A stretch of 64,000 nucleotides of DNA from Azospirillaceae bacterium. Its GTDB lineage: Bacteria > Pseudomonadota > Alphaproteobacteria > Azospirillales > Azospirillaceae. Of the stretch, positions 26,457 through 41,583 are shown piece after piece. The stretch spans positions 124,001 through 188,000 of the forward strand of contig JAPWJW010000001.1 in NCBI GenBank assembly GCA_028283825.1, given 5' to 3'. Numbering within the stretch: position 1 is the first letter of the stretch; every line of letters starts with the position of its first letter. The position numbers were made by a program, and so were the translations under genes. The notes beneath the pieces were generated by a model. It had not been told where the DNA came from, did no database searches, and worked only from the letters and a program-made list of their open reading frames with translations.

Positions 26457-26493
26457 CACTGTATTCCCGCATCAAGGTGTTTCGGAACGATGA

Positions 26494-27528
26494 TCAGTAC
26501 GGCCCTTTGAAATCATCGGGCCGATCTGTGGTTTCGACCTGATCGGCCTTTCCCAGAAGGGAAAGGGCCGCGCGGACGAGCGTCGACGCCCTTGGATAGA
26601 AACTGGCCTCCAGAACCTGTGATACGGGAGCCGGACAGTCCGCCAGAGCAATGCGCCGCACCGGCGCTTTCAGGAACCCGAACGCCTGCTCCGCCGCCAG
26701 AGCCGCAACCTCGCTCGTGACGCCACACAATTCCCAGCTTGTATCCGCGACAAGCAGCCGCCCGGTCTTGCGCACGGAAGCGAGGATGGTCTCGGAATCA
26801 AGGGGGCGAATGGAACGGAGATCAACCAACTCCGCCTCGACGCCCAGTCTCGCGAGGTCTTTGCAGGCTTGCTCCGCCTCAATCGTCATCAGGGACGTGG
26901 TTACGATGGTGATGTCGCGGCCGGGCCGCAAAACGGCGGCTCGGCCCAGAGGGGTCGGTTCCGGTTCTGACGGCACCGGCCCGGAAACATTGTAAAGAGC
27001 CCGGTGTTCCAGAAGGACCACGGGGCCATCGGCCTGCAGGGCAGCCAGCAGCAGCCCCTTGGCATCGCGGGGCGTCGCCGGCATGGCGACGGTCAGGCCA
27101 GGAAAATGTGCGAGCGGCGCCTGCAGACTCTGGGAGTGGGTCGCCCCCTGTCCCCAGCCTTTACCGATCACGGCGCGCACGACGATGGGTACCGATCCCG
27201 CTTGCCCGCCGTACATGTATGACCACTTCGCCGCCAGGTTGATGAGGTTATCAAAGGCGAGGAACATGAAGTCGTTGCGGGGATGGACGATTAGCGGTCG
27301 CTTGCCAGATGCCGCGGCACCAATGGCGATCCCGGTTAGCGCGTTTTCCATGGCCGGCGCGTCGAAAACCCGGGCGGAGCCGAACCGCTGGTATGCCGCC
27401 GTCGTCGTCCCGAAAATGCCGGACGGATAGTCAACAGCGATGCCCGTGATAAAAATATTCGGATCGCGTTCCATCGCCTGGACAGTCGCCTCGGAGATGG
27501 CTTCGGCATAGGTCAGTATACGGCTCAT
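26494..27528 (-). CDS. TPP-dependent dehydrogenase/transferase E1 beta subunit-like
   Basis: A 344-residue protein of the transketolase C-terminal/E1-beta family (PdhB, AcoB, AviB2-like), starting SRILTYAEAISEATVQAM. It contains the pyrimidine-binding domain with DAPAMENALTGIAIGAA and a transketolase C-terminal domain (ITIVTTSLM). It pairs with the E1-alpha gene upstream, overlapping it by ATGA (ATG 27528). No E2 or E3 subunit is present, so it probably transfers an activated acyl/acetaldehyde unit to a sugar rather than making acyl-CoA, as proposed for E1-like pairs in branched deoxysugar pathways. Confidence 0.82.
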   Translation of the reverse strand: MSRILTYAEAISEATVQAMERDPNIFITGIAVDYPSGIFGTTTAAYQRFGSARVFDAPAMENALTGIAIGAAASGKRPLIVHPRNDFMFLAFDNLINLAAKWSYMYGGQAGSVPIVVRAVIGKGWGQGATHSQSLQAPLAHFPGLTVAMPATPRDAKGLLLAALQADGPVVLLEHRALYNVSGPVPSEPEPTPLGRAAVLRPGRDITIVTTSLMTIEAEQACKDLARLGVEAELVDLRSIRPLDSETILASVRKTGRLLVADTSWELCGVTSEVAALAAEQAFGFLKAPVRRIALADCPAPVSQVLEASFYPRASTLVRAALSLLGKADQVETTDRPDDFKGPY

Positions 27529-28577
27529 GCTACGTTCCCCGCTGTGGCGCGCCAAACATGGTCGAACAGGCTATCCGGTGAGGGCCAAGGGGCGGCACGG
27601 GCCCGCTCGATTTCCGCCGCGACATGGGTGGCTGTCGTATCCGCCATGGTGTTCACGTCATCGACACCCGCCTGCCCGGTACGAACCAGATGGGCTGCCG
27701 CCCGACGAACCGGACAGCGCTCCAACCACAGGTCCAGTTCAGCTTTTGAACGATAGGTTCGTCCGGACTCATGGTCGAAAGCCGGGCCCACATGTTCCCG
27801 CCAGCGATACGTCATGCATTCCAGAAACACTGGCCCTCCGCCTGCGCGCGCGCGCAGCCGGGCCGCCGCCGCCGCTTTGAATACGGCCGCCACGTCGTTT
27901 CCGTCCACCTGGTCCGCCGTCACGCCAAAGCTGCGCACCCGGCCACAGAGGCTTGATCCCGGGGGTTGCCGCACGTCGGCCGGGCTCTCGGTCGAATACA
28001 GATTGTTTTCGCAGACCAGCAGGACCGGCAGGTGATGAAGGGCCGCGAAATTAAGGCTTTCATAGAACACGCCTTCTTCCAGCGTGGCGTCACCAAAAAA
28101 GCTGACCGCGACGGCGTCGGTGCCATCCATGGCGAAAGCCAGGGCACTCCCCACGGCTGTCGCCACCGTTTGGCCGAGGATGGCGCTGGAAATAATGAAG
28201 CCGCTATCGCGGGCGGTGAGGTGCACGGAACCGCCGCGCCCTCGGGAACATCCATCCTCACGGCCATAGATTTCCGCCGCCAGACGATAGACGCTGCCGC
28301 CACGAGCCAGATAATGATTGTGTGATCGATGGTGGCTGTACACGGCATCCGCCGGCGCCAGCGCTTGGCACACGCCCACCGCCACGGCTTCCTGGCCAGT
28401 GCCGAAATGGGTGGGCGTGCGCATCTCCTGTTCCTTGTAGCGGGATGCCAGCGTCTCCTCCGTCAGGCGCACCCGCAACAGGTCCTGGAAGGCCCGCGTC
28501 AGGTCGAGCCCCTCGCCACCGTCCACCAGGGGCGGCAGTTTCGAAAGGTCGGACGGGGTGGCAAGGGGGGGAAGCAT
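27525..28577 (-). CDS. TPP-dependent dehydrogenase/transferase E1 alpha subunit-like
   Basis: A 350-residue E1-alpha family protein. The region HFGTGQEAVAVGVCQAL, the SHHRSHNHYLARGG segment and the TPP-binding GDATLEEGVFYESLNFA followed by LVCENN are all present. A ribosome binding site AGGAG precedes ATG 28577. It needs the beta subunit at 26494 for activity. Sitting in a nucleotide-sugar cluster without E2/E3 genes, it is best read as part of a ketol-type C2 transfer enzyme. Confidence 0.82.
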   Translation of the reverse strand: MLPPLATPSDLSKLPPLVDGGEGLDLTRAFQDLLRVRLTEETLASRYKEQEMRTPTHFGTGQEAVAVGVCQALAPADAVYSHHRSHNHYLARGGSVYRLAAEIYGREDGCSRGRGGSVHLTARDSGFIISSAILGQTVATAVGSALAFAMDGTDAVAVSFFGDATLEEGVFYESLNFAALHHLPVLLVCENNLYSTESPADVRQPPGSSLCGRVRSFGVTADQVDGNDVAAVFKAAAAARLRARAGGGPVFLECMTYRWREHVGPAFDHESGRTYRSKAELDLWLERCPVRRAAAHLVRTGQAGVDDVNTMADTTATHVAAEIERARAAPWPSPDSLFDHVWRATAGNVA

Positions 28578-28873
28578 ATCATCTGCTCCTGTTTAAGCCG
28601 AACTTCACGACTGCCGGGGGGCAGCCGAAATATTGCGCCATGGGGTGGCATTTGATCGGTGAAGAACCAATCCATTGTACGTGTTGAGCCCGTCTCCAGG
28701 CCCCTGAACCCATAATCTTCGCAAGACATCGGGTATCCTGGAATCGACGAATGACAGGGCACCGATCCCGCGGTTGCGGCGTGGGCAAAGCCCATCCCTG
28801 TTTTGCATTCCCGTCCTCGACAGCGAATTGGTCGCTCGCCCTTTCAAATCGTCGGGCGATGCAATCGGTCGGG
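28578..28873 (-). other. Unassigned stretch between methyltransferase and E1-alpha genes
   Basis: This gap is unusual for such a tightly packed operon. All three minus-strand frames are largely open. The frame starting at ATG 28877 overlaps the methyltransferase stop by ATGA but gives a basic, low-complexity-like 90-residue product I do not recognise. Another frame ends in GAIFRLPPGSREVRLKQEQM next to the E1-alpha start. A decayed or frameshifted small gene is possible. Confidence 0.3.
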
Positions 28874-29560
28874 TCATGGCTGCCGCCCTATCACCTCAGG
28901 CCCCGCCTCCATGACTGTCCAATACCAATCCCCCCTGTACCCGGCCTCATCGAACAGCGCCCGCCACTCTTCAGGGCGGCACCAGGTCTTTGCGGCCAGC
29001 ATCCAGTCCTGAAAGATCTGCCGCTCGACCTCGGTACGGTAGGCGTCGACCTGAACAAATCCCCCGCCGGGCGCCACCCGCCGCATCTCGCGCAGCGCAG
29101 CCAAACAGCCCTCAGGCTCAAGATTATGGATGGTGTTGATGGACAGGGCCAAAGTGAAGGCACCGTCGGGAAACGGAAGCCGATCGCAATTGCCGCGGAC
29201 CAGTCGTCCACGGACATCGGGGTGGCTATTGGCCAGAGCGTAAGCAGAGATATCCAGGCCCCAAACCTCCAGGCCAGGCAGTTGGTCCGCGAGGTCCTTG
29301 ACCAAAAAGCCTTTGGCGCAGCCAATGTCCAAGACCCGGTCGCCCGGCTTCAAATCCCAGCGCTCAATGATGTCGTGGGCAACCTGCACCCAGCGCCCGT
29401 CGTAATGATAACCGCCATATCCCCGGCTGCGCGGCCCATCGAAATAGTCAAATCCGAACTGCAAAGACAGACGCCGATTTTCCTCTTTATCGATTAAACG
29501 GGCGCCGACATCACGAACGACTTTCGGAACCGATCGCAGCAGGTTGAATTCCTCCGCCAT
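28874..29560 (-). CDS. SAM-dependent class I methyltransferase
   Basis: A 228-residue Methyltransf_11/25-type enzyme. Motif I VLDIGCAKGFLVKDL is near residues 75-90, an acidic residue follows at LEVWGLDISAYAL, and the post-motif segment has LREMRRVAPGG. An N-terminal extension of about 55 residues contains YGGYHYDGRWVQVAHDI. In this cluster it probably O- or C-methylates a nucleotide sugar or glycan. It starts one base after the stop of the 81-residue gene upstream. Confidence 0.8.
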   Translation of the reverse strand: MAEEFNLLRSVPKVVRDVGARLIDKEENRRLSLQFGFDYFDGPRSRGYGGYHYDGRWVQVAHDIIERWDLKPGDRVLDIGCAKGFLVKDLADQLPGLEVWGLDISAYALANSHPDVRGRLVRGNCDRLPFPDGAFTLALSINTIHNLEPEGCLAALREMRRVAPGGGFVQVDAYRTEVERQIFQDWMLAAKTWCRPEEWRALFDEAGYRGDWYWTVMEAGPEVIGRQP

Positions 29561-29561
29561 T

Positions 29562-29807
29562 TTACCCCCGTGCCGTCAGACGGTCGCGGTGCATGTGCAA
29601 CCAAAGCGCATACCCGTCGTAGGGCGCCACCAGAGCCTCCGTCTGTAGCGACCGGGCGTCAAATACGCCAAGGCCCTGCCCTTCGCGCACCGTCAGCCGC
29701 GTCTCTTCGCCAGGCGGCAGCCGAGCCAGGAAAAAGGCCCGCGAAATGCCCGGTCGCCCACAGAACGCCATCTGAAAATCAAACCGGGTATCGAAGGCCT
29801 CCATCAC
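29562..29807 (-). CDS. Small hypothetical protein of sugar cluster (81 aa)
   Basis: An 81-residue protein whose ATGATGG start overlaps the stop of the SDR gene upstream, arguing that it is translated. It is not recognised. The pattern AFFLARLPPGEETRLTVREG and the C-terminal GYALWLHMHRDRL resemble the C-terminal half of a Nudix-like fold, but no Nudix box is present. It could be a truncated Nudix protein or a small accessory subunit. Confidence 0.5.
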   Translation of the reverse strand: MMEAFDTRFDFQMAFCGRPGISRAFFLARLPPGEETRLTVREGQGLGVFDARSLQTEALVAPYDGYALWLHMHRDRLTARG

Positions 29808-30682
29808 TCTCCTTCCATCATGTCGGCGTGAACCTTGGCCAAGCCCTGATCCAGCGGCGTGAAACGGAAATCGGGGAACGCGCGGCGCAAGGCGGAGATA
29901 TCAAAATGCCGATGGGTAGCCGGCGTTTTCCGCGGCGTGCAAATGATGTCGACGGGACGTGTGAAGCAGGCCGCGACGCGGTTCGCCAGGTCGTGATAGG
30001 AAACCGATTGCCCGGTCGCAAGGTTGAGCAAGCCGGTGCTCCTGGCGGCCAGGGTGCGTAAAATCAGTTCCACGACATCATCGACCAGGATGTGGTCCCG
30101 GCGTTCCTCCCCATCGCCAAAAAGGGTGATGCGGCCGTCCGCGCGCGCAACACGGCGTAGGCGATTGGGGCCGTATGAGTTGTGTGTGTCGGCAGCGCCA
30201 TAGATCAAAGTAGGGCGGAGAATGGCCAGGGGCGTATCCAACGGCTTCAGCATCAGTTCGCGCGATAGATGCATGGCCGCATAGAGGTCACCCGGCTCCG
30301 CCGCGGTCGCTTCGTCCACGGGGCTGTCAGCAAAAGGATACACCGCGTCGCTGCTGACATAGACGAGATGGGCCGAAGGCACTGTCTCCAGCGCGCTGGC
30401 CACGGCGGCCCCCATCCGCAAATTGGCCATGAAGGGCGGAACACCCCGCCCCTTGTCGGGCGTCAGGGCAGCCAACAGGACGAGACTATCGCGCGGCTGT
30501 AGCCGGTCAGCCAGCAGCCGTCCGGCGTCGGGCGCCGCAAGATCCAGCTCCTGACGACCAGGCGCCAGAACCGGGACGCCCTGCTCCCGCAATCGCTGCG
30601 TCAGGAGACGGCCGACAAAGCCCCCCCCACCCAGGATTACAACGCGATCGAGATGAACCGGCAGGGGAGAATGGATCAGCAT
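29804..30682 (-). CDS. NAD-dependent epimerase/dehydratase-like SDR with altered active site
   Basis: An extended SDR (about 292 residues from ATG 30682; ATG 30700 is an alternative that overlaps the upstream gene). The Rossmann motif is ILGGGGFVGRLL. The active-site region reads LVYVSSDAVYPF and then LYAAMHLSREL, so the YxxxK catalytic Lys appears to be replaced by His. C-terminal elements NLATGQSVSYHDLANRVA are typical of nucleotide-sugar SDRs. It may be a reductase or epimerase of unusual mechanism, or a binding protein. It belongs to the sugar cluster. Confidence 0.75.
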   Translation of the reverse strand: MLIHSPLPVHLDRVVILGGGGFVGRLLTQRLREQGVPVLAPGRQELDLAAPDAGRLLADRLQPRDSLVLLAALTPDKGRGVPPFMANLRMGAAVASALETVPSAHLVYVSSDAVYPFADSPVDEATAAEPGDLYAAMHLSRELMLKPLDTPLAILRPTLIYGAADTHNSYGPNRLRRVARADGRITLFGDGEERRDHILVDDVVELILRTLAARSTGLLNLATGQSVSYHDLANRVAACFTRPVDIICTPRKTPATHRHFDISALRRAFPDFRFTPLDQGLAKVHADMMEGE

Positions 30683-30683
30683 T

Positions 30684-31985
30684 TCACTTTTCTCGTGCAT
30701 CCAGAGGGTCGGACGGTGGAGCGCCCAATACGAAGTGGCGTAGGCCCGCCGCGCGCACGGCCGAGGTGGAAAGCAGCCGCCATGGGTCTATTACCGTCCG
30801 CCCCCCCAGCCTTTCAGCGATCCGCATCGGATCCAGGCGGCGGAATTCGGGCCAGGGGGTCATTATCACCAGGGCGCACGCCCCCTCGCAGGCATCCAGA
30901 GCATCGGCCGCACCGCGAAGGCCGGGGCGGGCCACCGCATCCGCCGGCACTTCCGGGTCCCACACCGCCACTTCCTTCCCGCCCAAGGCGTTCAGCAGGG
31001 CCAGGGCCGGCGAATTCCGGGTGGATCGGGTATTTTCCTTATAGGCCAGTCCAAGAACGGCCAGGCGCCCGCCGGGATCATCACGGAAGACATGCTCGTG
31101 CAGTATCCTCAACGCCCAGTCGCGCCGGCGGGCGGCGTCGCGGATCCAGACGTCGATCGAAGCAGCGCCGGCACCCGTTTCCCCAGCCAGGCGGCGAAAC
31201 CCGGCAAGGTCCCGTTCCAGATTGCCACCAGCGATGCCCAGGCCCGGCGTCAGATAGGCGTGCGGGCCGATACGCCTGTCCAGACGAAGCGCCGGCGCGA
31301 TTTCTCCCCAATCAGCCCCGATCCGTTCACAGAGGTCAGCCACCATGTTGGTGGTGGAGATGGACGAAACCAGGAATAGATTGATGGCGATCTTGCTCAG
31401 TTCCGCGCTTTCCCAGCCCATGGGCAGCAAGGGGCACCCGAACGCCGCCAGGAAATCGGCAAGGACGGAAGGCAAGGGGGCTGCCGGATCGGCGCAGCCA
31501 AGGATGAAACGCTCCGGCTGAAGGGCGCGCTCCACTGCCCGGCCAAAAATCAGCGTCTCGACCTGATAGAAGCGCTTTGCAACTGGGTGGGACAGTCCAC
31601 GGGTGAAACCGGGAGGCACCTGGCTCAACACCACCAGCACGGCTTCGGACGTCAGATTCCGCTCCGCAAGCGCGATCAGTTCCAGCAATATGGTCAGGTC
31701 GCTACGCCCTTGGGCATCCGTAGCCACATCGGGCGCCACATAGCAGAGCGGGACTGTTTCCAGATCCGATGGGTCGGAGGTGAAGCGCAGCCGAGCGGCA
31801 TGCGCCGCCAACAACTCCGGCAGATCCGGCTCCAACACCGGCAACCGTCCCGCCACCAGATCAGCAACCCGTTGCGCATCCTGGTCAAATGCCACAACGT
31901 CAAACCCCTTCGCGGCGGCAGCGGCGGCGTGGACGATGCCAAGATGGGTCATGCCCACAAAGGCGATGGACGGCCGTGTCGTCAT
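30684..31985 (-). CDS. UDP-glucose/GDP-mannose dehydrogenase homologue lacking the catalytic Cys
   Basis: A 433-residue protein with the three-domain layout of nucleotide-sugar 6-dehydrogenases: an N-terminal NAD domain (AFVGMTHLGIVHA), a central helical domain with ELSKIAINLF (Lys 197, Asn 201 conserved) and a C-terminal nucleotide-sugar domain (LAYKENTRSTRNSPAL). The motif normally GxGFGGSCFPKD reads GLGIAGGNLERD at 247-258, so the catalytic Cys is Asn 254. Without it, four-electron oxidation to a uronic acid is unlikely; a single oxidation of a secondary alcohol is more plausible. ATG 31985 overlaps the upstream stop by ATGA. Confidence 0.82.
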   Translation of the reverse strand: MTTRPSIAFVGMTHLGIVHAAAAAAKGFDVVAFDQDAQRVADLVAGRLPVLEPDLPELLAAHAARLRFTSDPSDLETVPLCYVAPDVATDAQGRSDLTILLELIALAERNLTSEAVLVVLSQVPPGFTRGLSHPVAKRFYQVETLIFGRAVERALQPERFILGCADPAAPLPSVLADFLAAFGCPLLPMGWESAELSKIAINLFLVSSISTTNMVADLCERIGADWGEIAPALRLDRRIGPHAYLTPGLGIAGGNLERDLAGFRRLAGETGAGAASIDVWIRDAARRRDWALRILHEHVFRDDPGGRLAVLGLAYKENTRSTRNSPALALLNALGGKEVAVWDPEVPADAVARPGLRGAADALDACEGACALVIMTPWPEFRRLDPMRIAERLGGRTVIDPWRLLSTSAVRAAGLRHFVLGAPPSDPLDAREK

Positions 31986-32917
31986 TGTGTCAAAGCCTCC
32001 CGCACCAGCGCGCTGAGCCGGGTCGCGATCCAAATATCGTTGTCAGTGTTGCTGCCGCCGGTGCGGCAGAGACGACGGAAGTGACCGTACTCGGCCTCCC
32101 AGGTCGGGTCGGAACGTACGAGTACGGTACTTTCCTCGTCCGGGCGACCGCTGGGCAGCACGCGCTCACGATGAATGAAGCTGGACGGCCCCCACTTGCA
32201 GAGCGAGCGGATGTGCGCGGACCCGGCTTCGCCGACGATGTCGCAGGTGAAGTCGTTCCGCCAGGATAGCAGGCTCATTTCCAATTCTATCCCGGGAACG
32301 CCGTCGCTCGCGATCACCACATGGTCGAAAGCGTTGTTCTCATACCGCCGGGCCGTGACCACGCGAAAAGGACCGCACTGGTCGCCGAACCAGAACAGCA
32401 CCGTGTCCAACAGGTGCGAACCCAGGTCTGCCAGAACGCCTGGGTCCTTGTCCCGCCAGGCGGAGTTTCGGACGTCCCGCGCGGTGCCGTTGCCATAAGA
32501 CATGCGGCAGCGGTAGATCCGCCCCAGGCCACCGCCGTCCAGTAGCGCCTTCATGCGAACGAAGTGCGGCTCGAAGCGATGGTTGTACGCCGTGTAGAGC
32601 GTTAGATTCCGCCGACTGGCCTCAGCCGCCAGTTCCGTCAACGCGTCCGGGTGGTCACCTACCAGCGGCTTTTCCACCAGGACATGCTTGCCAAGCCGCA
32701 GCAGATGGCGCAGCAGGTCCGGCTTCACGACATCTGGGGTGCAAACCAGGGCGGCGTCGTAGGCATCAGCCGGGATTTGGCCGACGTCGCGCCAGTCCGC
32801 CCGGTCATTGACCGGGTCGACCGTGCCGATACAGTCCTTGCCGGCGACCCGGCGGCGCTTTTCACCTTGGACGCCCAGGCCGATGACCACACAGCGGAAG
32901 GCGGCCGGTTCAGTCAT
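31982..32917 (-). CDS. Gfo/Idh/MocA-family oxidoreductase
   Basis: A 311-residue NAD(P)-dependent oxidoreductase. It has an N-terminal Rossmann segment VVIGLGVQGEK and the family motif EKPLV at residues 82-86, then a C-terminal sugar-binding domain with YGNGTARDVRNSAW and DLGSHLLDTVLFWFG. Members oxidise, reduce or eliminate at ring carbons of sugars and nucleotide sugars. It overlaps the HldE-like gene by 8 bases and the dehydrogenase-like gene by ATGA, so the three are probably used together. Confidence 0.85.
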   Translation of the reverse strand: MTEPAAFRCVVIGLGVQGEKRRRVAGKDCIGTVDPVNDRADWRDVGQIPADAYDAALVCTPDVVKPDLLRHLLRLGKHVLVEKPLVGDHPDALTELAAEASRRNLTLYTAYNHRFEPHFVRMKALLDGGGLGRIYRCRMSYGNGTARDVRNSAWRDKDPGVLADLGSHLLDTVLFWFGDQCGPFRVVTARRYENNAFDHVVIASDGVPGIELEMSLLSWRNDFTCDIVGEAGSAHIRSLCKWGPSSFIHRERVLPSGRPDEESTVLVRSDPTWEAEYGHFRRLCRTGGSNTDNDIWIATRLSALVREALTQ

Positions 32918-34457
32918 AGCTGATGTCCCGTTCAGCCTTGTCGATGCGGCTTAACAGTTCCTTGGGCGTGATCGGCATGTTGCCATCGTGCTGGCATTCC
33001 AGACCCGCGGCGAAGCATCCGAGGATACTGGCGATGACCTCGCTGCCGGTTACCGCCATGGCCAACGACGCGTATGCCAGCAAGGCGTCACCCGCCCCAA
33101 CCGGATCCGTTATCTGGTCGGCGAAGCTGTCCAGTATGAAAAAGCTCCTGGTGTCGTGGCCGGCCTGACGGAAGGTGATCATGCCCCGCTCGCCCAGCTT
33201 CAGCATCAGGGTTTTGCAATCCGCCCGTTTGAACAGTTCCGAGCCCAGAGGGCGGACGGTCGCGTCCTGGTCCCCCAGGGCGAACCGGGCCTCCCGTTCA
33301 TTCGGCGTGATGAGGTCGAATCCCGGGAAATCGAGGATATTCCCCCACCGGCTGGCGACCTGACTGTCGGCAACGCGATACGCGCCCTCCGGAATCGCAT
33401 CGATGAAGGCGGGAATGCTATCCCGGTTGAACACGCCGTGACGGAAATCCGAGAAGATGACGACATCGGCCGGCACCTCGCGAAGCTGGGCCGTCAGTTG
33501 CCGCAAAATCCGCTCGGATATGGGGCGGTTATCCAGCGTATCGATCTTCAACATGCGATAGCCACCGACCACGACGGCGTTCTTGTTGGTGGTCGGCCGG
33601 GTGGGGTCGATCACCGCGCGGCAGTCCACGCCGGCGGCATCGAGATCGTTGAGCAGATGGTCCCGAAATGCATCATCCCCCAAGACCGTGGAAAAGGTCA
33701 CTTTCGCACCCGCCGCCTGCAGGTGCTTGGCAACGATTGCCGCCCCGCCGGAAAAGTCCTGCTTGCTCTCATAGCGGACGCTCATTGTCGGGGTCTTGGT
33801 CATGCCTCCAATCATGCTGCATTGGGTATAGCTGTCGATGATGGTGTCACCCAGCACATGCACCCGCAGCCCGGCCATCCGCGTCAAGGCGCCGCGCAAA
33901 TCCTGAAAACCGATCTGCTCCGCCTCCATTAACAACATCAGCTTTTCCAGGGCGATGTTGGGCGGAGCCATCTCGATAAGCGCGCTGGAGGAATAGACGA
34001 TATCCCCTGGCGTGAAGATCATCTCCCCGCCATAGTTTTCCAGCGCATTAATTTCTTCCTGGGTCTTGGGATGGACCGATCCCTTGACGTATTCGTATCC
34101 CTTCGCGAAATAATCCGGCTGTATTTTCCTAATATTCTCGATCGGCGTTGGATTCTGGTCAACCAACACCCAGTCGACCAGTTCGAAAGCAGCGATATTC
34201 AAGGCCCGCAGGTCTTCGGGCACATAGGGCCGAACGTTCCCTTTGCTGATATGCTGATCCGCCGTCAGGCTGACAATCAATACGTCGCCCTTCGACTTCG
34301 CGTAGATCAGATGCCGCAAGTGTCCAGGATGGACGACATCGAAGACGCCGTGACACATGATGACTTTCTGGTCGCGCGGCCGATCACCGATAAGCGCACG
34401 CAGTTCGTCCGCCGTCTTGATCTTCTTGCGATAGCGAAAAAGCGTCGCTTCTTCCAT
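32910..34457 (-). CDS. HldE-like bifunctional sugar kinase/nucleotidylyltransferase with reversed domain order
   Basis: A 515-residue two-domain protein. Residues about 28-165 form a cytidylyltransferase-like domain (CHGVFDVVHPGHLRHL, HPGH at 43-46). From about residue 195 a PfkB-type kinase follows (GDTIIDSYTQC, then DPVGAGDALLAYA near 455). In E. coli HldE the kinase is N-terminal and the nucleotidylyltransferase C-terminal; here the order is swapped. Expected chemistry is phosphorylation of an aldose-phosphate at C1 and, after dephosphorylation, coupling to ADP, CDP or another nucleotide. It fits with the SIS isomerase and GmhB-like phosphatase in the same operon. Confidence 0.87.
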   Translation of the reverse strand: MEEATLFRYRKKIKTADELRALIGDRPRDQKVIMCHGVFDVVHPGHLRHLIYAKSKGDVLIVSLTADQHISKGNVRPYVPEDLRALNIAAFELVDWVLVDQNPTPIENIRKIQPDYFAKGYEYVKGSVHPKTQEEINALENYGGEMIFTPGDIVYSSSALIEMAPPNIALEKLMLLMEAEQIGFQDLRGALTRMAGLRVHVLGDTIIDSYTQCSMIGGMTKTPTMSVRYESKQDFSGGAAIVAKHLQAAGAKVTFSTVLGDDAFRDHLLNDLDAAGVDCRAVIDPTRPTTNKNAVVVGGYRMLKIDTLDNRPISERILRQLTAQLREVPADVVIFSDFRHGVFNRDSIPAFIDAIPEGAYRVADSQVASRWGNILDFPGFDLITPNEREARFALGDQDATVRPLGSELFKRADCKTLMLKLGERGMITFRQAGHDTRSFFILDSFADQITDPVGAGDALLAYASLAMAVTGSEVIASILGCFAAGLECQHDGNMPITPKELLSRIDKAERDISYD

Positions 34458-35465
34458 TCAACTCTCCTGGGAAAGCATGGCGAACCAGGTGCGGGTGGCT
34501 TCGGCGATCCGATCCGGGGTCCAAAGCGGAGCGTCGCGCCAATAGTCGATGTCAGCCAAAACCTTGGCCACCCCTTCCTCGAATGAAACCAAGGGTGCCC
34601 ATCCCAGATCATCACGGATGCGGCGGGTGTCGGCCCACGTGCAATCAGGCTCCCCGGGGCGCTTGGGCAGGTGCGTGACCGATCCACCCCCCATCAGCTC
34701 GACCAGCCGATTGACGGACTGGGGCGCCGACGCCCCAAGATTCCAAATATGGCCAACCAGATCAGTACGGGCAGCCGCCAGGAATGCGGCCGCCACATCG
34801 CTCACGTACAGAAAATCCCGGGTCTGGGCGCCATCACCCACGACGGTAAAGGGATGGTTGGCCAGCTTTTGGCGCAGGAACACCCCGAATACGGCGCCAT
34901 AAGCTCCGGAAGTCCGGGAGCGCGTGCCATAAGCGTTGAAAATGCGAATGCTGTTGACCGGCAGCCCATAGACCCGGTGCCAATGCAAACAAGCCTGCTC
35001 GCCCTGGTACTTGCTCAAAGCGTACGGGTAGCAGGGGTCGATCGGGTGGTCCTCATCCGTTGGCACGGTCGCCAGCCCATAGCAGGACGACGACGCCGCA
35101 TATACCAACTTGCCCACACCAGCCGCCCGGGCCGCCTCCAGCACCGCCACCGTTCCCTGGACGTTGACTGACATGTATTCGGCCGGCCGTTCGATCGACG
35201 GAACGATGTCACCGATACCTGCGAAATGCAGGACGATCTCGGCGCCGCGGAACAGGGCATCATCGGGTGCAAGTTGACGGATGTCGCGGGAGTCCACGCG
35301 CAAATCGGGATTATGGTGATGGGCGGCCAAGTTTTCCAGCCGCCCGCCCGTCATGTTGTCGATGACATGGACACGATAGCCCGCAGCCAGGGCGGCATCG
35401 ACGGCATGGCTGCCGATGAAGCCCGCGCCACCAGTAATAACGGCGAGGGGGTGGGATGCGCTCAT
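34458..35465 (-). CDS. Nucleotide-sugar epimerase/dehydratase (extended SDR)
   Basis: A 335-residue extended SDR. The Rossmann motif TGGAGFIGSH starts near residue 11, the catalytic area reads YAASSSCYGLA with YPYALSKYQGEQ (YxxxK intact), and the nucleotide-sugar-binding part has FNAYGTRSRTSGAYGAV. ATG 35465 overlaps the stop of the preceding SDR by ATGA. It resembles UDP-glucose 4-epimerases and related enzymes. Substrate is presumably the NDP-higher-sugar made by this cluster. Confidence 0.85.
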   Translation of the reverse strand: MSASHPLAVITGGAGFIGSHAVDAALAAGYRVHVIDNMTGGRLENLAAHHHNPDLRVDSRDIRQLAPDDALFRGAEIVLHFAGIGDIVPSIERPAEYMSVNVQGTVAVLEAARAAGVGKLVYAASSSCYGLATVPTDEDHPIDPCYPYALSKYQGEQACLHWHRVYGLPVNSIRIFNAYGTRSRTSGAYGAVFGVFLRQKLANHPFTVVGDGAQTRDFLYVSDVAAAFLAAARTDLVGHIWNLGASAPQSVNRLVELMGGGSVTHLPKRPGEPDCTWADTRRIRDDLGWAPLVSFEEGVAKVLADIDYWRDAPLWTPDRIAEATRTWFAMLSQES

Positions 35466-36466
35466 TTGGCGTTCCCACTTTTCAGGACCTTGACGTTGAC
35501 ATAACGCTCGTCGGTCATGCTGTCCGGCAACAGCCCTTGCTTGAACGCGTGACAAAGGTCCCGGACTGCGTCGCCGATCCCCCGCTTTGGACGGAAACCC
35601 AGGTGGTGGGAGATCTTGTCGGAATTGATGTGGTAGCTGCGCAAGTCATTGGACGGCGTATAAATTACCTCGATCGGAGCTTTCCCTGGAAACTCCTTCT
35701 CGACTTCTTCCCGTACCATCTGGGCAATGTCGGCGATGGTGTGGTTCTGGTAGCCGGCATTGAAAGTCTGTCCTGCGATAGCCTCGTCAGGCACGTCCAG
35801 CAACAGCAGGTACAGGTCGACCATATCCTGCACATGCAGGTTGGGGCGTTTCTGGCTACCGCCAAAAACCGTGATCCTGCCATTATTGATCGCGTGATTG
35901 GTAAGGATGTTGACGCTGAGGTCCAGACGCATGCGCGGGCTATAGCCACACAGCGTGGCCGGCCGAATGGTGACGCACACGAAATCCGGCGACTGGTGGC
36001 GGAACAACAGCGGTTCGCACATCCCCTTGAACTTGTTGTAAAGGGTCAGCGGCACCAGCGGATGTTCCTCAGTAACGTCCGGCGCGTCCGAGACACCGTA
36101 GACCGAACTGCTGGAGGCATAGATGAAGCGCCGCACCCCCGCGGCTTTTGCCGCAACGACCATTGGCTCGAAACAGTCGAAGTTGATGCTTTGGCTTAGG
36201 CCCTCGTCCAGATCAAAACTGGGGTCATTGGAAATGCAGGCCAGGTGGATGACCGTGTCCACGCTCCGGAACGCTTCCGCCAAACGGGCCGTGTCGCGGA
36301 TGTCCCCCTGAATGACCCGGAGGTTGGGATGGTCAAGCGGCAATCCCGGTGTGCCAAAATAGAGAATATCGTAGACCGTGACCTTGTAGCCGCGCTCCAG
36401 GAGCGCCGGGGTCAGAAGGGCGCCGACGTAGCCTGCCCCGCCAGTGACTAAGACATGTTTATTCAT
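35462..36466 (-). CDS. Nucleotide-sugar epimerase/dehydratase (extended SDR)
   Basis: A 334-residue extended SDR distinct from its neighbour. TGGAGYVGALL is near residue 8; the active site reads FIYASSSSVYG and TLYNKFKGMCE (YxxxK intact). A late segment YHINSDKISHHLGFRPKRG is common in LPS and capsule epimerases. Its start is well supported by the N-terminal Rossmann strand MNKHVLVTGG. It is one of three SDRs in the cluster, which implies several stereochemical changes on the product sugar. Confidence 0.85.
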   Translation of the reverse strand: MNKHVLVTGGAGYVGALLTPALLERGYKVTVYDILYFGTPGLPLDHPNLRVIQGDIRDTARLAEAFRSVDTVIHLACISNDPSFDLDEGLSQSINFDCFEPMVVAAKAAGVRRFIYASSSSVYGVSDAPDVTEEHPLVPLTLYNKFKGMCEPLLFRHQSPDFVCVTIRPATLCGYSPRMRLDLSVNILTNHAINNGRITVFGGSQKRPNLHVQDMVDLYLLLLDVPDEAIAGQTFNAGYQNHTIADIAQMVREEVEKEFPGKAPIEVIYTPSNDLRSYHINSDKISHHLGFRPKRGIGDAVRDLCHAFKQGLLPDSMTDERYVNVKVLKSGNAK

Positions 36467-36494
36467 GGGTCCGGTTCCTAAGGATTAGGGATGC

Positions 36495-36728
36495 CTATGC
36501 ATCCACGCAGGCGGTTTGGGTCACGCCGGTCGAATAATGCAGATCGATGTTGCGTTCTGCGGCGCTGGCCGCAACGGTCGCCGCGCGCCAGTGAACTTCC
36601 CGATGGCAGGAAAGAAAGTTCACGCCGACGATACCAAGCCCTAGGAGGACAGGAGCCCCTAACCCACCGGCCGGTAGCGCCTTCGTTTTCCACGGCTCTT
36701 CCGCCATCATTCCCTCCGTACACATCAT
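36495..36728 (-). CDS. Small predicted membrane protein, weak
   Basis: A 77-codon frame whose ATG overlaps the stop of the GmhB-like gene by ATGA. An internal ATG pair at about 36713-36708 sits directly after GGAGGG. One hydrophobic segment (APVLLGLGIVGVNFLSC) suggests a single membrane helix. Not recognised. Overlap and ribosome binding site argue for translation; lack of family similarity argues for caution. Confidence 0.35.
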   Translation of the reverse strand: MMCTEGMMAEEPWKTKALPAGGLGAPVLLGLGIVGVNFLSCHREVHWRAATVAASAAERNIDLHYSTGVTQTACVDA

Positions 36729-37282
36729 AGGGCGCCCCGGGTATCGCCCGTCGATAGGATCGCCTCGATAGCCGCCGACAGGCTGTCAACGACCAGATCA
36801 GGACAGCCGCCGGCGCTGTCACCGGTGCCGTGGTCGATCATGATCGTGCGGCACCCGACGGCTTGACCGGCGACAATGTCGCTGGCGCGATCACCGACCA
36901 TCCAGCAGTCAACGAGATCAGCAATTTCCAGGCCAAGTGCCGCCGCCGCCTGCAACAGCAGCCCTGGCGCCGGCTTGCGGCAAGCGCAGCCCTCCTCCTG
37001 GCGGTGGGGGCAGATGAAAATGCCCGTGATTCCGATCTGCGCGGTCAACATCTGGTGCATCCGATCCAGGGTGGACCAATCCATCAGCCCATTTCCCAGG
37101 TCCGGCTGATTGGTGACCACCGCCACCTGCCAGCCGGCCGCGCGCAGCTCGGCGACTGCGGCGCCCGCGTTGTGATAAAGAGAAAATTCCGCCAACTGCC
37201 GTGGCGCAAGGTATCGGCCATCACGCACCACGTTGCGCACCAGGACGCCATCGCGATCCAGGAAAACCATCTTGGCCGTCAT
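36725..37282 (-). CDS. HAD-family sugar bisphosphate phosphatase, GmhB-like
   Basis: A 185-residue HAD phosphatase from ATG 37282. Motif I FLDRDGVLV places the nucleophile Asp at residue 9. The zinc-binding loop CPHRQEEGCACRKP is the hallmark of the GmhB/HisB-N group, and GDRASDIVAGQAVG supplies the late acidic motif. GmhB removes the distal phosphate from heptose-1,7-bisphosphate before nucleotide activation, and a matching role is likely here for the bisphosphate made by the HldE-like kinase. GGAGG lies about ten bases upstream. Confidence 0.85.
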   Translation of the reverse strand: MTAKMVFLDRDGVLVRNVVRDGRYLAPRQLAEFSLYHNAGAAVAELRAAGWQVAVVTNQPDLGNGLMDWSTLDRMHQMLTAQIGITGIFICPHRQEEGCACRKPAPGLLLQAAAALGLEIADLVDCWMVGDRASDIVAGQAVGCRTIMIDHGTGDSAGGCPDLVVDSLSAAIEAILSTGDTRGAL

Positions 37283-37515
37283 GTCGAACGGAACCTCCGC
37301 GACAGCGGGAGCCCAACCCGCGGCCATCGAGCGGGCACACATGCCTCATCGGCTTCGACGGCATCGCAGGCGCTGATCACAGACGCCGGCTCCGTCCCCA
37401 CATGGGGATAGGGAAAGGTGGTTCCGCGCGCCGTCACCTTCCAGTCCCCCGGAATGGCGGGCGCCCGACGCTGTGCCCAAGCGGCTGCGACAACAATGAC
37501 AACGATAATGTCATC
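37279..37515 (-). other. Open frame between glycosyltransferase-like and phosphatase genes, no ATG
   Basis: The frame directly after the stop of the 37516 gene, in the same phase, stays open for about 78 codons and ends at a TGA overlapping the ATG of the GmhB-like gene. Protein-like segments are seen (WKVTARGTTFPYPHVGTEP) but there is no ATG; a GTG inside this segment is the only common start and would give about 52 residues. It could be a lost C-terminal extension after a point mutation to TAA, or chance. Confidence 0.25.
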
Positions 37516-39153
37516 TTATCCCCCGGCCAGAAGCGTCATGACATGCCCCCGCGACGTGGCGTTGACCGCCCGCATCATGGCGATCAACCTCTGTCCGCCC
37601 AGCCGCAGATGTTCACGATCCACAGCCCCGAGGCGCTGGGGTAATGTTGGAAGGTCCGCAGGTGCGACAACCAACCCCGCACCGTAGGCGCGGACCAAAT
37701 CGGCCATGAATTGGAACTGGGGGTCGATCAGGACGGGCAGACCACACGCCAGGTAGGTGGTGAACTTATTGCCAATGCCGACGCGGGACACGGGTTCGGC
37801 GTCCGCCTCGTCGCCATGCATGATGTGCCATCCCCAGCCATAGTCCGGCAGGCGCTGGATCATGCGATCGAATGGCAGCCCCGGGTGATACCGTAGCAGT
37901 TGTCCCGCACCAGCCAAGGCGTGGTAGGGCGCGAACAGCGCGTCATGCCCCGGCAAGCGGTGAGCGGCATTGAAGAGATCGATCCTTAATCCAGAGTCCG
38001 CCGGCAGCCGCTGGATCATCTCGACATAGCGCATGTCCAGATGATCGCTTTCCTGGTCGACAGTCGACGGTATGGGAAGCGTGCCCGCGAAAATGATCGC
38101 CTCGGGATCGGGCGTCCCTGCCACCGGCAACGGGAGGTCGACCCGCGGATAGATCAAGCATTGCGGCGCCCCCAATCCATGGCAGGCATCTTCCCACAGG
38201 AGCCCGCCGTTCTTCACCAGGACCAGATCGCAGAGTTCAAGGGATGCCAATTCAGAAAGACGGGCGAGATAAATATCCTCGGCGTCGCAATCATACGCCC
38301 GCATCAGCTTCTCATCGGTCAGCATCAGCGTCTGATCATACATTTCCTGCACGACGACGATGTCGGGGTGGCGCAGCTTTAGCCAGCCACTGAGGAACTG
38401 GCCTGCAAAATGCGCTGATACCCGGACATAGACGCTCCGCAGGGGCAAACTCCTGATCAACGCATCCAACAAGGTCAGCGAGAGATGCGCGTCGAAGAGC
38501 GGAAAATGGTCATCAAGCCGGCCAGCCTGCGGGGATTCCGGTCTACCGAACCAGACATGCAAGGTCTTGTCCCGCGGCAGGGCGTCCAGCTCGCAATCGC
38601 GCAGCAACGACCATTGGGGCTCCGCGCAGGACACCACAAGGTGTTCAATACCCCTGCCCTGCCAAGAACGGATTTCGGGCATGTGCTGGGCAAGAGCGAA
38701 CGCGACATAGTCAGGGTCGGCGAGGACGTCACGGATGTGGGACGGCGCGCATCCCAGCTGATGGAGGGCTGCCGCTATCGACTGCCCCCTGTGGTGGTGC
38801 AAAACCAGGATGCCATCCACCACCTGTGCGGATGCGGCCTCAGGCGGCAGGACCGGCCGGCCACAAAATTCTCCGATATCCTGAGCCCGGCGATCGAGAA
38901 AGCCTTGAATCTCGACATCGGACCGATCGGAGACGGCCTGGCACAGTGTCGCCCCCATGGTTCCAGCGCCATAAATGACGTACCGCCCCGCAGGAAGGCG
39001 CTCCCGCGCCCAGGCAGCAAGCGTTTGCTGGTCACGGGGCGCGCTGTAAAGCCGCTGAAGTGTGGGCAGCGCCTGCGCGAAAGCCGCCAGGGTGGCCTTG
39101 CCGTCGAGCTCCGCCCGCAGGCGCTGGAGCGGCCATGGCAGATCCCCAGTCAT
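37516..39153 (-). CDS. Large glycosyltransferase-like protein with N-terminal Rossmann domain
   Basis: A 545-residue protein. Residues about 55-145 look like a nucleotide-binding Rossmann domain (RYVIYGAGTMGATLCQAV, then GFLDRRAQDIG), similar to domains found in sugar-modifying proteins. The remainder resembles a GT-B glycosyltransferase: ILVLHHHRG near the junction, IIFAGTLPIPS in the middle and NKFTTYLACGLPVLIDPQ near the C-terminus. The family is not identified precisely. It overlaps the methyltransferase gene by ATGA and probably transfers or modifies the sugar made by this cluster. Confidence 0.65.
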   Translation of the reverse strand: MTGDLPWPLQRLRAELDGKATLAAFAQALPTLQRLYSAPRDQQTLAAWARERLPAGRYVIYGAGTMGATLCQAVSDRSDVEIQGFLDRRAQDIGEFCGRPVLPPEAASAQVVDGILVLHHHRGQSIAAALHQLGCAPSHIRDVLADPDYVAFALAQHMPEIRSWQGRGIEHLVVSCAEPQWSLLRDCELDALPRDKTLHVWFGRPESPQAGRLDDHFPLFDAHLSLTLLDALIRSLPLRSVYVRVSAHFAGQFLSGWLKLRHPDIVVVQEMYDQTLMLTDEKLMRAYDCDAEDIYLARLSELASLELCDLVLVKNGGLLWEDACHGLGAPQCLIYPRVDLPLPVAGTPDPEAIIFAGTLPIPSTVDQESDHLDMRYVEMIQRLPADSGLRIDLFNAAHRLPGHDALFAPYHALAGAGQLLRYHPGLPFDRMIQRLPDYGWGWHIMHGDEADAEPVSRVGIGNKFTTYLACGLPVLIDPQFQFMADLVRAYGAGLVVAPADLPTLPQRLGAVDREHLRLGGQRLIAMMRAVNATSRGHVMTLLAGG

Positions 39154-39884
39154 CGATTACCTGCGCCGCCTGATTCCAAGGCCGGCGGACACCGGGGGCC
39201 ACAGCCGATGGCCAGAAGATACTGCGCCATCCGGCCGTATCCGACGTGCAGAACCTCGTCATTCATGGAAAAGACGAAAACAGTGTGGAAGTGCTCGGCC
39301 ATCGTAGCGCGGAGTTGCTCCAGCGTCTGGCAGTTGACATGCCCCTCCTTGCTAATGGGCGAGGCGTAGGCCTGGCTCTCCAGGGACGGCATGCCGATGA
39401 TCAGACTACCCTGGGGATCCAACGAATCCACGAGATGGCCAAGGAAACGATGCTGAAGCTCCGGCTGAATATGCTCCAGCACATCCAGCGCGTAGATGCC
39501 CCGCCACCGCCCCGGTGGCGGGCCATCCAGGACATCGTGCCTGAACACCCCGGCGAACGGCCAATCCACCTCAGCCCTGGAATTGATGTCGTCGATGAAG
39601 GTCTGGTCGAAATCGCAAACAGAGAGCCTTTTCACGGCTTGCTGAACGATCCGGCTGGGGAATGCGTCGCCACAACCAACTTCAAGAACCTCGTCCCATC
39701 CGTCGAACATCTTCGCCACGAACTTATAGCGGGCCAAGGTGAACCCCAGCCTTCTGGGGTCATCGTGCCAAGTCTGGTTCATCATCAGACCCAGCTTGCT
39801 CCGGCCGACTTGGTCATCAATATCGAGGAGGCGCTGATACTGCGCTTCCTTCGTGGTCGGCGGCACTGTGTTGGAATTGGTCAA
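39150..39884 (-). CDS. SAM-dependent methyltransferase
   Basis: A 244-residue class I methyltransferase. I prefer the TTG start at 39884 because GGGAGGGG lies just upstream; an in-frame TTG at 39899 would add five residues. Motif I reads VLEVGCGDAFPSRIV, followed by LSVCDFDQTF and the post-motif YALDVLEHIQPE. The C-terminal half (SKEGHVNCQTLEQLRATM) is common in polysaccharide-cluster methyltransferases. It lies between transaldolase and the glycosyltransferase-like gene. Confidence 0.78.
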   Translation of the reverse strand: MTNSNTVPPTTKEAQYQRLLDIDDQVGRSKLGLMMNQTWHDDPRRLGFTLARYKFVAKMFDGWDEVLEVGCGDAFPSRIVQQAVKRLSVCDFDQTFIDDINSRAEVDWPFAGVFRHDVLDGPPPGRWRGIYALDVLEHIQPELQHRFLGHLVDSLDPQGSLIIGMPSLESQAYASPISKEGHVNCQTLEQLRATMAEHFHTVFVFSMNDEVLHVGYGRMAQYLLAIGCGPRCPPALESGGAGNR

Positions 39885-39899
39885 GGCTTCCCCTCCCAA

Positions 39900-40634
39900 T
39901 CAGTGTGAGCCGGACGTTGGGATGCTGAAGCCGGCGCTGCTGGCGTCGCGGTAGAACATCTGAACGGTCTCCAGCGAATACTGGTCCAGGTCCTTACCCA
40001 CCAACGACAATTTGGCCAGGACATCATGGGTTACGGTGATGATATGGCACCCGATATGGTCAGCCTGGAAGATATTCAACAGTTCGCGGGGGCTGGCCCA
40101 GATCAACTCCGCGCGGGGTAAATCGCGCAGGATTTCGACGGCTTCCGCCATCTGCGGAACCGGATCCCGACCGGTATCGGCCACGCGGCCGGCGAAGACC
40201 GAAACGAGCGCCGGGACATCGGGCTGGAGGCAGTCGCGAACCTGTCGCACTTGCTCGTTCGTCATCAGGGCGGTGACGTTGACGGTCACACCGGCTGACG
40301 ACAAGCGTCGGATCACCGGGCCAGTAAATTCCCCCTGGGTGTTGGTGATCGGGATTTTGACGTTCACGTTGGCACCCAACGCCGCGATGACCAGAGCCTG
40401 CCGCTCCATCCCGTCGAAGTCATCGGCAAAGACCTCGAAGGACACGGGCCGGTCCGGCACCAGATCAAGGACACTACGCGCGAAGGCGATGTAGTCCGTG
40501 ATTCCCGCCTTGCGCATAAGTGTAGGATTGGTGGTGAAGCCCTTGATCAACGGGTTTCTCGCCAAACTGGCAATCCCTTCAAGGTCGGCGCCATCGGCAA
40601 AAATTTTTACCGACAGATCCTCCGTTTGCCGCAT
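39900..40634 (-). CDS. Transaldolase-family enzyme
   Basis: A 244-residue small transaldolase (TalC/Fsa-type length). The Schiff-base Lys is residue 93 in NVKIPITNTQG; GFTTNPTLMRKAG near residues 32-44 and a late FADGADL/QADHIGCHIITV are typical. ATG 40634 is chosen with GGAGAG just upstream. Transaldolases move dihydroxyacetone units and can build heptulose or octulose phosphates. Having one inside a nucleotide-sugar cluster points to a dedicated supply of a higher-carbon ketose phosphate. Confidence 0.88.
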   Translation of the reverse strand: MRQTEDLSVKIFADGADLEGIASLARNPLIKGFTTNPTLMRKAGITDYIAFARSVLDLVPDRPVSFEVFADDFDGMERQALVIAALGANVNVKIPITNTQGEFTGPVIRRLSSAGVTVNVTALMTNEQVRQVRDCLQPDVPALVSVFAGRVADTGRDPVPQMAEAVEILRDLPRAELIWASPRELLNIFQADHIGCHIITVTHDVLAKLSLVGKDLDQYSLETVQMFYRDASSAGFSIPTSGSH

Positions 40635-40691
40635 GTTCACTCTCCATCTTTTCTTGCCGGCTTTTCTTGCCGATAGGTTGCCGCCTGGGTC

Positions 40692-40967
40692 TCACAGCCC
40701 TGGCTGCGGGTGGCGCACGATCACGATTTGGCCCGGAACAGGCGACCGCCATTTCCGATGGCGTCGGCCTCCAGGGAAGGGATGACGCCGTATCCCACGG
40801 ATGATATCGGCGAAAAGCGGACCATCGGCGCCCCCGGGCAGAATCCAACGCAAGAAGCACGCCATAAGCCAGGTGATCAGCCGCCGTAGACTGATCCGGT
40901 CTCCTGGGCGCCGGGAAATTGATTGCGGGCGATACAGCCCCCCGCGAAGGCATGGGGTGGCGCGCAT
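40692..40967 (-). CDS. Possible small basic protein in a 346-base gap, weak
   Basis: The gap between the SIS gene and transaldolase (40635-40980) is out of character for this operon. One 91-codon minus-strand frame starts 14 bases after the SIS stop, with a hydrophobic patch (LITWLMACFLRWILPGG) and an Arg-rich tail. It is not recognised and has no clear ribosome binding site. Otherwise the gap holds nothing I can identify. Confidence 0.25.
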   Translation of the reverse strand: MRATPCLRGGLYRPQSISRRPGDRISLRRLITWLMACFLRWILPGGADGPLFADIIRGIRRHPFPGGRRHRKWRSPVPGQIVIVRHPQPGL

Positions 40968-40980
40968 CGCGGCCCCGGCA

Positions 40981-41583
40981 TCAAGCCGGCCCCAATCCTT
41001 CCCACTTGTTCTCTTGGCGCATCAGCACCGGATGACAAACCAGACAGTGCCAGACCACAGCCTGGAACGCCTCGGTATGGGGTGTAACCATCCGCTCATC
41101 GACGGTTGGGATTATGATGACGGTATCGCCGCGTTCGGCCGTATGGCCCCCGGCGCGCCCCACGACCCCGAACACCTTCAGGCCACGGGATTTGGCCTCG
41201 TCGATCGCACGCACCAGGTTGGTGCTAACGTTGCGCTCGGCGTCACCGCCACCAACGGAGAAAATCAACAGCGCGTCGTCGGAATTGGCGCGGCTCGTCC
41301 GGAGCCAGGCAGCGAACACCGTCTCCCACCCCTCATCATTGGTGCGGGCGGTCAGTTCCGATACATTGTCCGTGGGCGCGTAAGCCTCAATTCCGCATAA
41401 CTTGCGAAAGTCATTGACGGCATGGCCGCAATTACCGGCACTTCCGCCAACCCCCATCAAAAATAGGCGTCCCCCGCGCTCGCGAAGCGCCGCCAAGTCA
41501 TGGGCGAGGCGGTCTACGGCCGCATAATCAATCCGCTCGGCGATCAGACGCGCCTGGGCGAAATACTGTTCAACATAGCTCAT
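40981..41583 (-). CDS. SIS-domain phosphosugar isomerase, GmhA-like
   Basis: A 200-residue single-SIS protein of the GmhA (sedoheptulose-7-phosphate isomerase) type. LFLMGVGGSAGNCGHAVNDF holds the phosphate-binding loop, SVGGGDAERNVSTNL the second loop, and a late HTEAFQAVVWH the likely catalytic His/Glu/Gln region. It would convert a ketose phosphate to the aldose phosphate. It is the first gene of the minus-strand cluster; ATG 41583 is preferred over an in-frame GTG at 41595. Confidence 0.83.
   Translation of the reverse strand: MSYVEQYFAQARLIAERIDYAAVDRLAHDLAALRERGGRLFLMGVGGSAGNCGHAVNDFRKLCGIEAYAPTDNVSELTARTNDEGWETVFAAWLRTSRANSDDALLIFSVGGGDAERNVSTNLVRAIDEAKSRGLKVFGVVGRAGGHTAERGDTVIIIPTVDERMVTPHTEAFQAVVWHCLVCHPVLMRQENKWEGLGPA

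Follow-up and report, generated by a model that had tools for sequence, protein, structure and literature searches.

A nucleoside diphosphate (NDP) octose built with a transaldolase is known, within the literature accessible to us, only from the biosynthesis of lincosamides. The genes concerned stand in the order lmbIH, J, K, L, M, N, Z, P, O, S, R, Q, T, with LmbN as the octulose 8-phosphate isomerase (PMC4351081, accessible part), and LmbM, LmbL, CcbZ and CcbS lead from GDP-octose to GDP-lincosamide (PMC12945683, accessible part). We describe here an operon of 15 close-packed genes, several of them overlapping, on the minus strand (25005-41595) of a 64,000-nucleotide stretch of an Azospirillaceae genome (contig JAPWJW010000001.1, positions 124,001 to 188,000; this whole stretch is called the window, and gene coordinates are counted from its first letter). 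The operon resembles the lincosamide octose branch in how it works but is not itself such a branch: the logic is the same and the parts are partly different. We think it fairly likely that it makes a nucleotide-activated octose, probably extended by two carbons (C2), for a surface glycan.

Read from 41595 to 25005, the operon encodes a SIS-family isomerase, a transaldolase, a methyltransferase (MT1), a possible glycosyltransferase, a HAD-IIIA phosphatase, two short-chain dehydrogenases/reductases (SDR1 and SDR2), a fusion of nucleotidyltransferase and sugar kinase, then a Gfo/Idh/MocA oxidoreductase, a homologue of UDP-glucose dehydrogenase (UGD), SDR3, a second methyltransferase (MT2), the alpha and beta subunits of a thiamine diphosphate (ThDP) enzyme of the E1 kind, and a protein without family. 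An earlier note on this DNA, drawn up from the letters and their open reading frames, had listed an enzyme set with its strand and coordinates, likened its logic to that of the lincosamide octose branch, and remarked that no pyridoxal phosphate (PLP) aminotransferase was present. All of this has held: profile searches found each activity and matched no aminotransferase family among the 15 cluster proteins, and the likeness of logic is supported both by these searches and by the phylogenies of the SIS protein and the UGD homologue. The same note was silent on the E1 pair, on both methyltransferases and on the extension of the operon to the gene at 25005, and the overlooked ThDP pair alters the predicted product.

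The cassette and its lincosamide counterparts

As a proxy for the lmb genes we used a SIS search of 392 genomes of one genus, Streptomyces by our assignment (genome G780 has seven matches to the SsgA family); it gave eight matches. A cluster in genome G1318 (10.3 Mb) begins with PmbA/TldD, methyltransferase, HAD, UGD, SDR, SIS, Gfo/Idh, GHMP and nucleoside triphosphate (NTP) transferase genes and ends with DegT aminotransferase, transaldolase, PmbA/TldD and glycosyltransferase genes, functions that match the reported lmb order; similar clusters occur in four further genomes. Lmb-type sequences are, in what follows, the proteins of such lmb-ordered Streptomyces-like clusters, assigned by gene order. 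Streptomyces-like clusters with lmb-like octose genes other than that of G1318 (L194-L197), three of them mutually close and far from it, possibly make unknown octose natural products.

The relatives of the operon come from a scan of genome contigs seeded with nine aligned SIS proteins, all chosen beside transaldolases, of which the best 80 of at least 541 confirmed relatives were analysed, so that the rates given here are valid for the nearest relatives only. Among the 35 of these 80 that have at least 9 kb of sequence on both sides, a transaldolase with 45% identity or more to that of the window lies within 10 kb of the SIS gene in 28, the fusion protein is found in 22, and transaldolase, UGD and Gfo/Idh occur jointly in 25; seven loci (L070, L071, L073, L083, L090, L108 and L113) are without such a transaldolase. 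This recurrence of the gene set among SIS relatives argues for an association beyond chance. In the Omnitrophota loci L070, L071 and L108 the same SIS is paired with a different transaldolase, of 31-33% identity, and a different Gfo/Idh. The cassette of the window, which we call type A, runs SIS-HAD-transaldolase-SDR1-SDR2-fusion-Gfo/Idh-UGD-SDR3-MT2. A sister cassette, type B, joins SIS-HAD-transaldolase to SDR-UGD-SDR-Gfo/Idh-GHMP kinase-NTP transferase; it lacks the fusion and has in its stead a GHMP kinase and an NTP transferase, as in lmbP/lmbO, and it possesses a homologue of every lmb octose enzyme bar the aminotransferase.

UGD enzymes need a cysteine, within the motif GGSCFPKD, for their second oxidation step. 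In the window homologue (30684-32033; TIGR03026, 197 bits) the motif reads AGGNLERD, with Asn at the catalytic Cys when aligned to PDB entries 4a7p, 3gg2 and 3vtf. The same column holds Asn in 44/44 type A copies and Thr in both the type B (9/9) and the LmbL-type proteins (5/5), so that Cys is absent from all 58 cassette or Lmb-type copies, whereas none of the 11 ordinary dehydrogenases compared (five from plasmids, six from the same loci) has lost it. Once the motif is masked, the Cys-less branch has a support of 100/99, which becomes 100/96 when the Lmb rows are left out and 100/99 when the type A rows are, in trees built on subsets of the 44 type A rows (17 in one, 11 in the masked-motif trees). 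The window homologue groups with the LmbL-type proteins in one Cys-less set. With the Cys missing, this LmbL-like enzyme is predicted to stop at a ketone or an aldehyde and to form no acid, and the LmbL-type proteins share the change.

The SIS protein (40981-41595; PF13580) gives 51.6 bits with the gmhA model, whose cut-off is 209.45, and so misses the GmhA equivalog. Its phosphate loop differs as well: E. coli GmhA has STSGN and other SIS proteins SGSGN, TASGN or SASGR (one of them being truncated there), whereas the cassette proteins have SVGGG with an insertion and LmbN has SVHGG with an insertion, the common pattern being SVxGG. The residues H58, D62, E175 and H183, all found in the window protein, are present in 94 of 94 cassette rows and in five of five LmbN-type rows. 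In the SIS tree a starred branch (98/93) sets the cassette SIS, LmbN and L174-L178 apart from GmhA and six other SIS proteins, and the window SIS, a putative ketose/aldose phosphate isomerase, groups with the LmbN type and not with GmhA. In L176 and L177, too, a transaldolase gene lies close to the SIS gene.

The remaining octose enzymes are partly of the lincosamide kind. The phosphatase (36725-37342; TIGR01656, 131.1 bits), GmhB/LmbK-like by family, is 40% identical over 173 amino acids to the protein at the LmbK position and is LmbK-type by this identity; the Gfo/Idh/MocA protein (31982-32917; PF22725, PF01408), which falls into one type A clade, may play a LmbZ-like role. Against the G1318 cluster the window proteins show identities of 30% (SIS), 31% (transaldolase), 40% (HAD), 31% (UGD) and 29% (Gfo/Idh), and the type B proteins are nearer to it (UGD 36%, Gfo/Idh 33%, SDR 33%), the SIS and transaldolase having been compared between type B and lmb with the window proteins as query. 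The fusion, MT1, MT2 and E1 alpha have no match in that cluster. The GHMP kinase (LmbP) and NTP transferase (LmbO) are replaced in the window by a CTP_transf_like-PfkB fusion (32910-34457), with an HldE2-like nucleotidyltransferase at the N-terminus (PF01467, residues 35-160) and an HldE1/PfkB-like sugar kinase at the C-terminus (PF00294, residues 201-492).

The transaldolase (39900-40640) belongs to the TIGR02134 type (359.6 bits, cut-off 281.95). At the positions of Gln59 and Tyr131 of E. coli FsaA, which we take to be those separating transaldolases from the fructose-6-phosphate aldolase FSA, Glu and Phe stand in 15/15 of the type A rows used and in 15/15 of type B, the Schiff-base Lys being kept. 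LmbR-type rows have Gln and Leu there, and the two that were scored fit the FSA/TalC model better; LmbR is matched best by fsa_talC_mipB (133 vs 88 bits) and stands apart from the window protein in the tree, of which rows L001_FSA and L013_FSA are disregarded. Four of the five usable FSA-labelled rows of that tree carry Glu/Phe and are probably TalC-like transaldolases. With subfamily and residues both different, the transaldolase front end is analogous to LmbR, not orthologous.

The ThDP pair, the proposed pathway and its alternatives

E1 alpha (27525-28577; PF00676; 262.1 bits with the pyruvate dehydrogenase (PDH) E1 alpha model, cut-off 393.85) and E1 beta (26494-27555; PF02779/PF02780; NF006667, 289.2 bits, cut-off 321) both remain under the PDH cut-offs, and E2/E3 partners are absent among the 15 genes. 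They follow MT2 (28874-29560; PF13649), which is conserved across type A loci, and the slot after MT2 that they fill in the window often holds a split transketolase in relatives. Twenty-two type A loci, the window excluded, extend 7 kb or more past the downstream end of the fusion gene, and 18 of these 22 contain a ThDP pair of either kind, in 17 cases downstream on the same strand, the pair of L039 lying elsewhere in its locus. In secondary metabolites, pairs called alphaKADH2 attach C2 units to keto sugars, and for miharamycin and amipurimycin a transfer of hydroxyacetyl by split transketolases has been proposed (PMC12247030, a 2025 review, accessible part). The linkage in 18 of 22 loci suggests a C2 branch on a keto-octose and, by analogy, suggests that the Cys-less dehydrogenase may make the acceptor carbonyl to which the ThDP pair would add C2.

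We infer the order of steps, and likewise the substrates, the chain length and the destination, from the chemistry of the families and the lincosamide pathway. The transaldolase would move a dihydroxyacetone unit from fructose 6-phosphate or sedoheptulose 7-phosphate to ribose 5-phosphate (which we take to be the donor and acceptor of LmbR as well), giving octulose 8-phosphate, which the LmbN-like SIS would turn into octose 8-phosphate. The PfkB half of the fusion would then phosphorylate O-1, the HAD phosphatase would take off the 8-phosphate and the nucleotidyltransferase half would yield an NDP-octose. The Cys-less UGD homologue would carry out one two-electron oxidation to a ketone or an aldehyde, as expected of LmbL; the SDRs and Gfo/Idh would epimerise or reduce; E1 alpha and beta would take an acetyl unit from pyruvate and attach it to the carbonyl, which would make a branched ten-carbon (C10) sugar; and one or both methyltransferases would cap it. 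The product is probably an eight-carbon or a branched ten-carbon sugar of the cell surface, a destination suggested by weak glycosyltransferase signals in the window and by transport or glycosyltransferase genes near some relatives. As a wider conjecture, plausible in our eyes but decidedly tentative, type A could be a modular factory for branched C10 sugars of the cell surface, occurring in many phyla, in which an NDP-octose made by way of the transaldolase is oxidised once by the Cys-less dehydrogenase and then receives an exchangeable C2 unit (acetyl from an E1 pair or hydroxyacetyl from a split transketolase), and the lincosamides could be an offshoot of an older octose chemistry.

Several observations weigh against this interpretation, in whole or in part. 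Branches in the SIS tree are long, so that the kinship with LmbN leans on the shared loop as well, and LmbN reaches up to 87.9 bits with GmhA-type models where the window SIS reaches 52.7, which places the cassette SIS at a distance from both. The earlier note had named, as a sign against its view, a placing of the transaldolase and the SIS protein in unrelated clades of central metabolism; the SIS protein does group with LmbN, but the transaldolase lies outside the LmbR subfamily, and in the tree the type A and type B enzymes are interspersed with transaldolases from other gene neighbourhoods, so that this half of the check counts against a common origin, and transaldolase phylogeny had to be rejected as proof of kinship with LmbR. 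In quick trees on subsets, LmbM groups with the type B SDR (99*) and apart from SDR1-3, and the deep branches around the Gfo/Idh protein, 29% identical to the LmbZ type, are weak. A ThDP pair is missing from four of the 22 type A loci (L149, L150, L202 and G254, the last made up of L146 and L217), seven of the positive ones (L147, L210-L215) are near-copies from one genus, and none of the 15 type B loci shows a pair in the available sequence, some of which is short. Finally, no sequence test tells eight from seven carbons, and we know of no cassette carrier whose glycan structure has been described, although no carrier-by-carrier search was made.

The counts for types A and B speak at the same time for an unbranched octose, for which the ThDP pair would be a passenger or serve another step and the sugar would be linear (methylated, keto or deoxy), as the lincosamide octose is generally known to be. 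We regard this as possible but rather unlikely, given that the pair sits right after MT2 in the operon and in many relatives and that two kinds of pair, E1 and split transketolase, fill the same slot. A modified heptose has its own arguments: transaldolases are generally known to yield sedoheptulose 7-phosphate in central metabolism, the closest models for kinase and nucleotidyltransferase are those of HldE, GmhB models match the phosphatase, and chain length is not fixed by sequence. The transaldolase would then top up sedoheptulose 7-phosphate, the SIS would be a divergent GmhA, and the NDP-heptose would be oxidised, branched and methylated. However, the fusion gives 164.5 bits with the HldE model, whose cut-off is 521, and none of the operon proteins reaches the equivalog cut-off for GmhA, HldE or GmhB; elsewhere in the genome lies a distinct HldE kinase domain that does pass its cut-off, so that core heptose can do without the operon; the SIS has the altered loop and groups with LmbN; and an octose pathway has enzymes that correspond to the Cys-less UGD and to Gfo/Idh. 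A heptose thus seems to us unlikely, if deserving of serious attention, and we prefer the octose.

Two further explanations have much less in their favour. It is true that in other bacteria TIGR02134-like transaldolases adjoin genes for a phosphotransferase system (PTS), a transporter or an oxidase, but an operon serving catabolism or the pentose phosphate pathway is very improbable here, where profile searches identify none of the 15 genes as that of a transporter or regulator and where fusion, nucleotide-sugar dehydrogenase and SDRs are enzymes of activation and modification, conserved as a set. Bradyrhizose, the C10 sugar of photosynthetic bradyrhizobia, would be formally an octose plus C2; its genes were unknown in 2016, photosynthetic strains have a conserved cluster of 11 genes (PMC4743980, accessible part), and one photosynthetic relative (G289) has the cassette. 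But only G289 and G453, out of 27 genomes with PufL/M in this genus (Bradyrhizobium, as we infer), have the fusion or the cassette SIS (E < 1e-90). With two carriers in 27 we dropped bradyrhizose as the product, and hardly any likelihood is left to it.

Distribution, other genes and surroundings

By record titles, which may be wrong for metagenome bins, cassette loci span many phyla. Type B is annotated on a plasmid of Lawsonia intracellularis and was found by alignment on two Rhizobium plasmids; the Lawsonia locus (L033, 4538-21087) is a complete type B cassette that encloses a lysylphosphatidylglycerol-synthase-like membrane protein, with glycosyltransferase family 2 genes nearby. The fusion protein occurs in 19 of the 296 genomes of one family sample (E 1e-120 or better) and in 10 of the 265 genomes of one genus (E 1e-100 or better). 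In the window's own family, nine of 82 genomes, including that of the window, carry this kind of transaldolase (E 3.2e-87 or better); it was found in none of the six other genomes of the same genus, whose best match is of a distant kind (about 1e-22). The operon has a GC content of 61.4%, against 69.9% and 68.7% in its flanks, and forms a low-GC compositional island; it was probably acquired horizontally. In a relative of the same family (L041, 6080-9045) two DegT aminotransferases and a PIG-L deacetylase lie between the E1 pair and the cassette, which makes an amino variant of the sugar possible.

Among the other genes of the operon, MT1 (39150-39899; PF13489/PF13649) is, like MT2, a class I S-adenosylmethionine (SAM) methyltransferase. 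The possible glycosyltransferase (37516-39153) has an N-terminal Rossmann-like stretch with weak matches, both under the Pfam cut-off (DapB_N 9e-4, Glyco_trans_1_4 0.037); a PDB search up to E 1 gave no relatives, and an AlphaFold2 model made without alignment was unusable (mean confidence score, pLDDT, 36). The last gene (25005-26459) has no match in Pfam or NCBIfam and is glycosyltransferase-like by eye only, its AlphaFold2 model without alignment being unusable too (mean pLDDT 41). SDR1 (35462-36466) and SDR2 (34458-35555, its true start lying probably inside the annotated frame) belong to the NAD-dependent epimerase/dehydratase family (PF01370) and keep YxxxK in 53/53 and 51/51 aligned copies, respectively. 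SDR3 (29804-30700; PF01370/PF04321) is RmlD-like with His for the catalytic Lys; this replacement is seen in 40 of 41 aligned copies of SDR3 and its homologues, and His for Tyr in 28 of the 41, a conserved departure from SDR chemistry.

Outside the operon, a plus-strand run (14662-24406) of PhoD-like phosphatase, nucleoside hydrolase, PnrA-like binding protein, ABC transporter, permease, SIS and PfkB kinase genes looks like a separate system for nucleoside or sugar uptake. At 52626-63201, on the minus strand, lie a protein of 1117 amino acids with an autotransporter domain and an open frame of 2403 amino acids.

Comparison with described pathways

In the literature searched, which included few subscription journals, we recognised no description of the cassette among the papers listed. 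Here an operon that many phyla have in common follows the logic of the octose branch, and a plasmid of Lawsonia intracellularis carries its sister cassette. If our interpretation is true, bacterial glycans should contain C8-C10 sugars as a class without description in the accessible literature, and the origin of the lincosamide sugar becomes testable; such genes can be looked for by two sequence marks, the SVxGG loop of the SIS and GG[NT]LxRD in the dehydrogenase.

The ADP- and GDP-heptose pathways (GmhA, HldE, GmhB, HldD; HddA/HddC) share with the operon the HldE-like kinase and nucleotidyltransferase domains and the HAD-IIIA phosphatase. The window differs from them in the reversed domain order of its fusion, in the missed equivalog cut-offs and in having its own transaldolase, and further in its Cys-less dehydrogenase, Gfo/Idh and ThDP pair. 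With the alphaKADH2 pairs (aldgamycin, kibdelomycin) and the split transketolases it has in common a two-subunit ThDP enzyme beside an oxidoreductase that could make a keto group, but those act in secondary metabolites, as far as the accessible part of PMC12247030 goes, and the pair is here linked to an octose-type front end. Sugars of the YerE type, such as yersiniose and caryophyllose, also bear a carbon branch made on a keto NDP-sugar in surface glycans (same source, same part); YerE itself is a ThDP enzyme of the decarboxylase class, unlike E1 and transketolase.

The known relative of the operon is the lincosamide octose branch. Both combine transaldolase, SIS, kinase, phosphatase, nucleotidyltransferase, SDR, UGD homologue and Gfo/Idh, and they share the LmbN-like SIS loop, the Cys-less UGD and a HAD phosphatase that is 40% identical; the window differs in the subfamily of its transaldolase, in its HldE-like fusion, in SDRs of other clades, in the absence of an aminotransferase and in the additional ThDP pair. 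What sets the operon apart is a partly different set of enzymes, another setting and a probable carbon-branching step.

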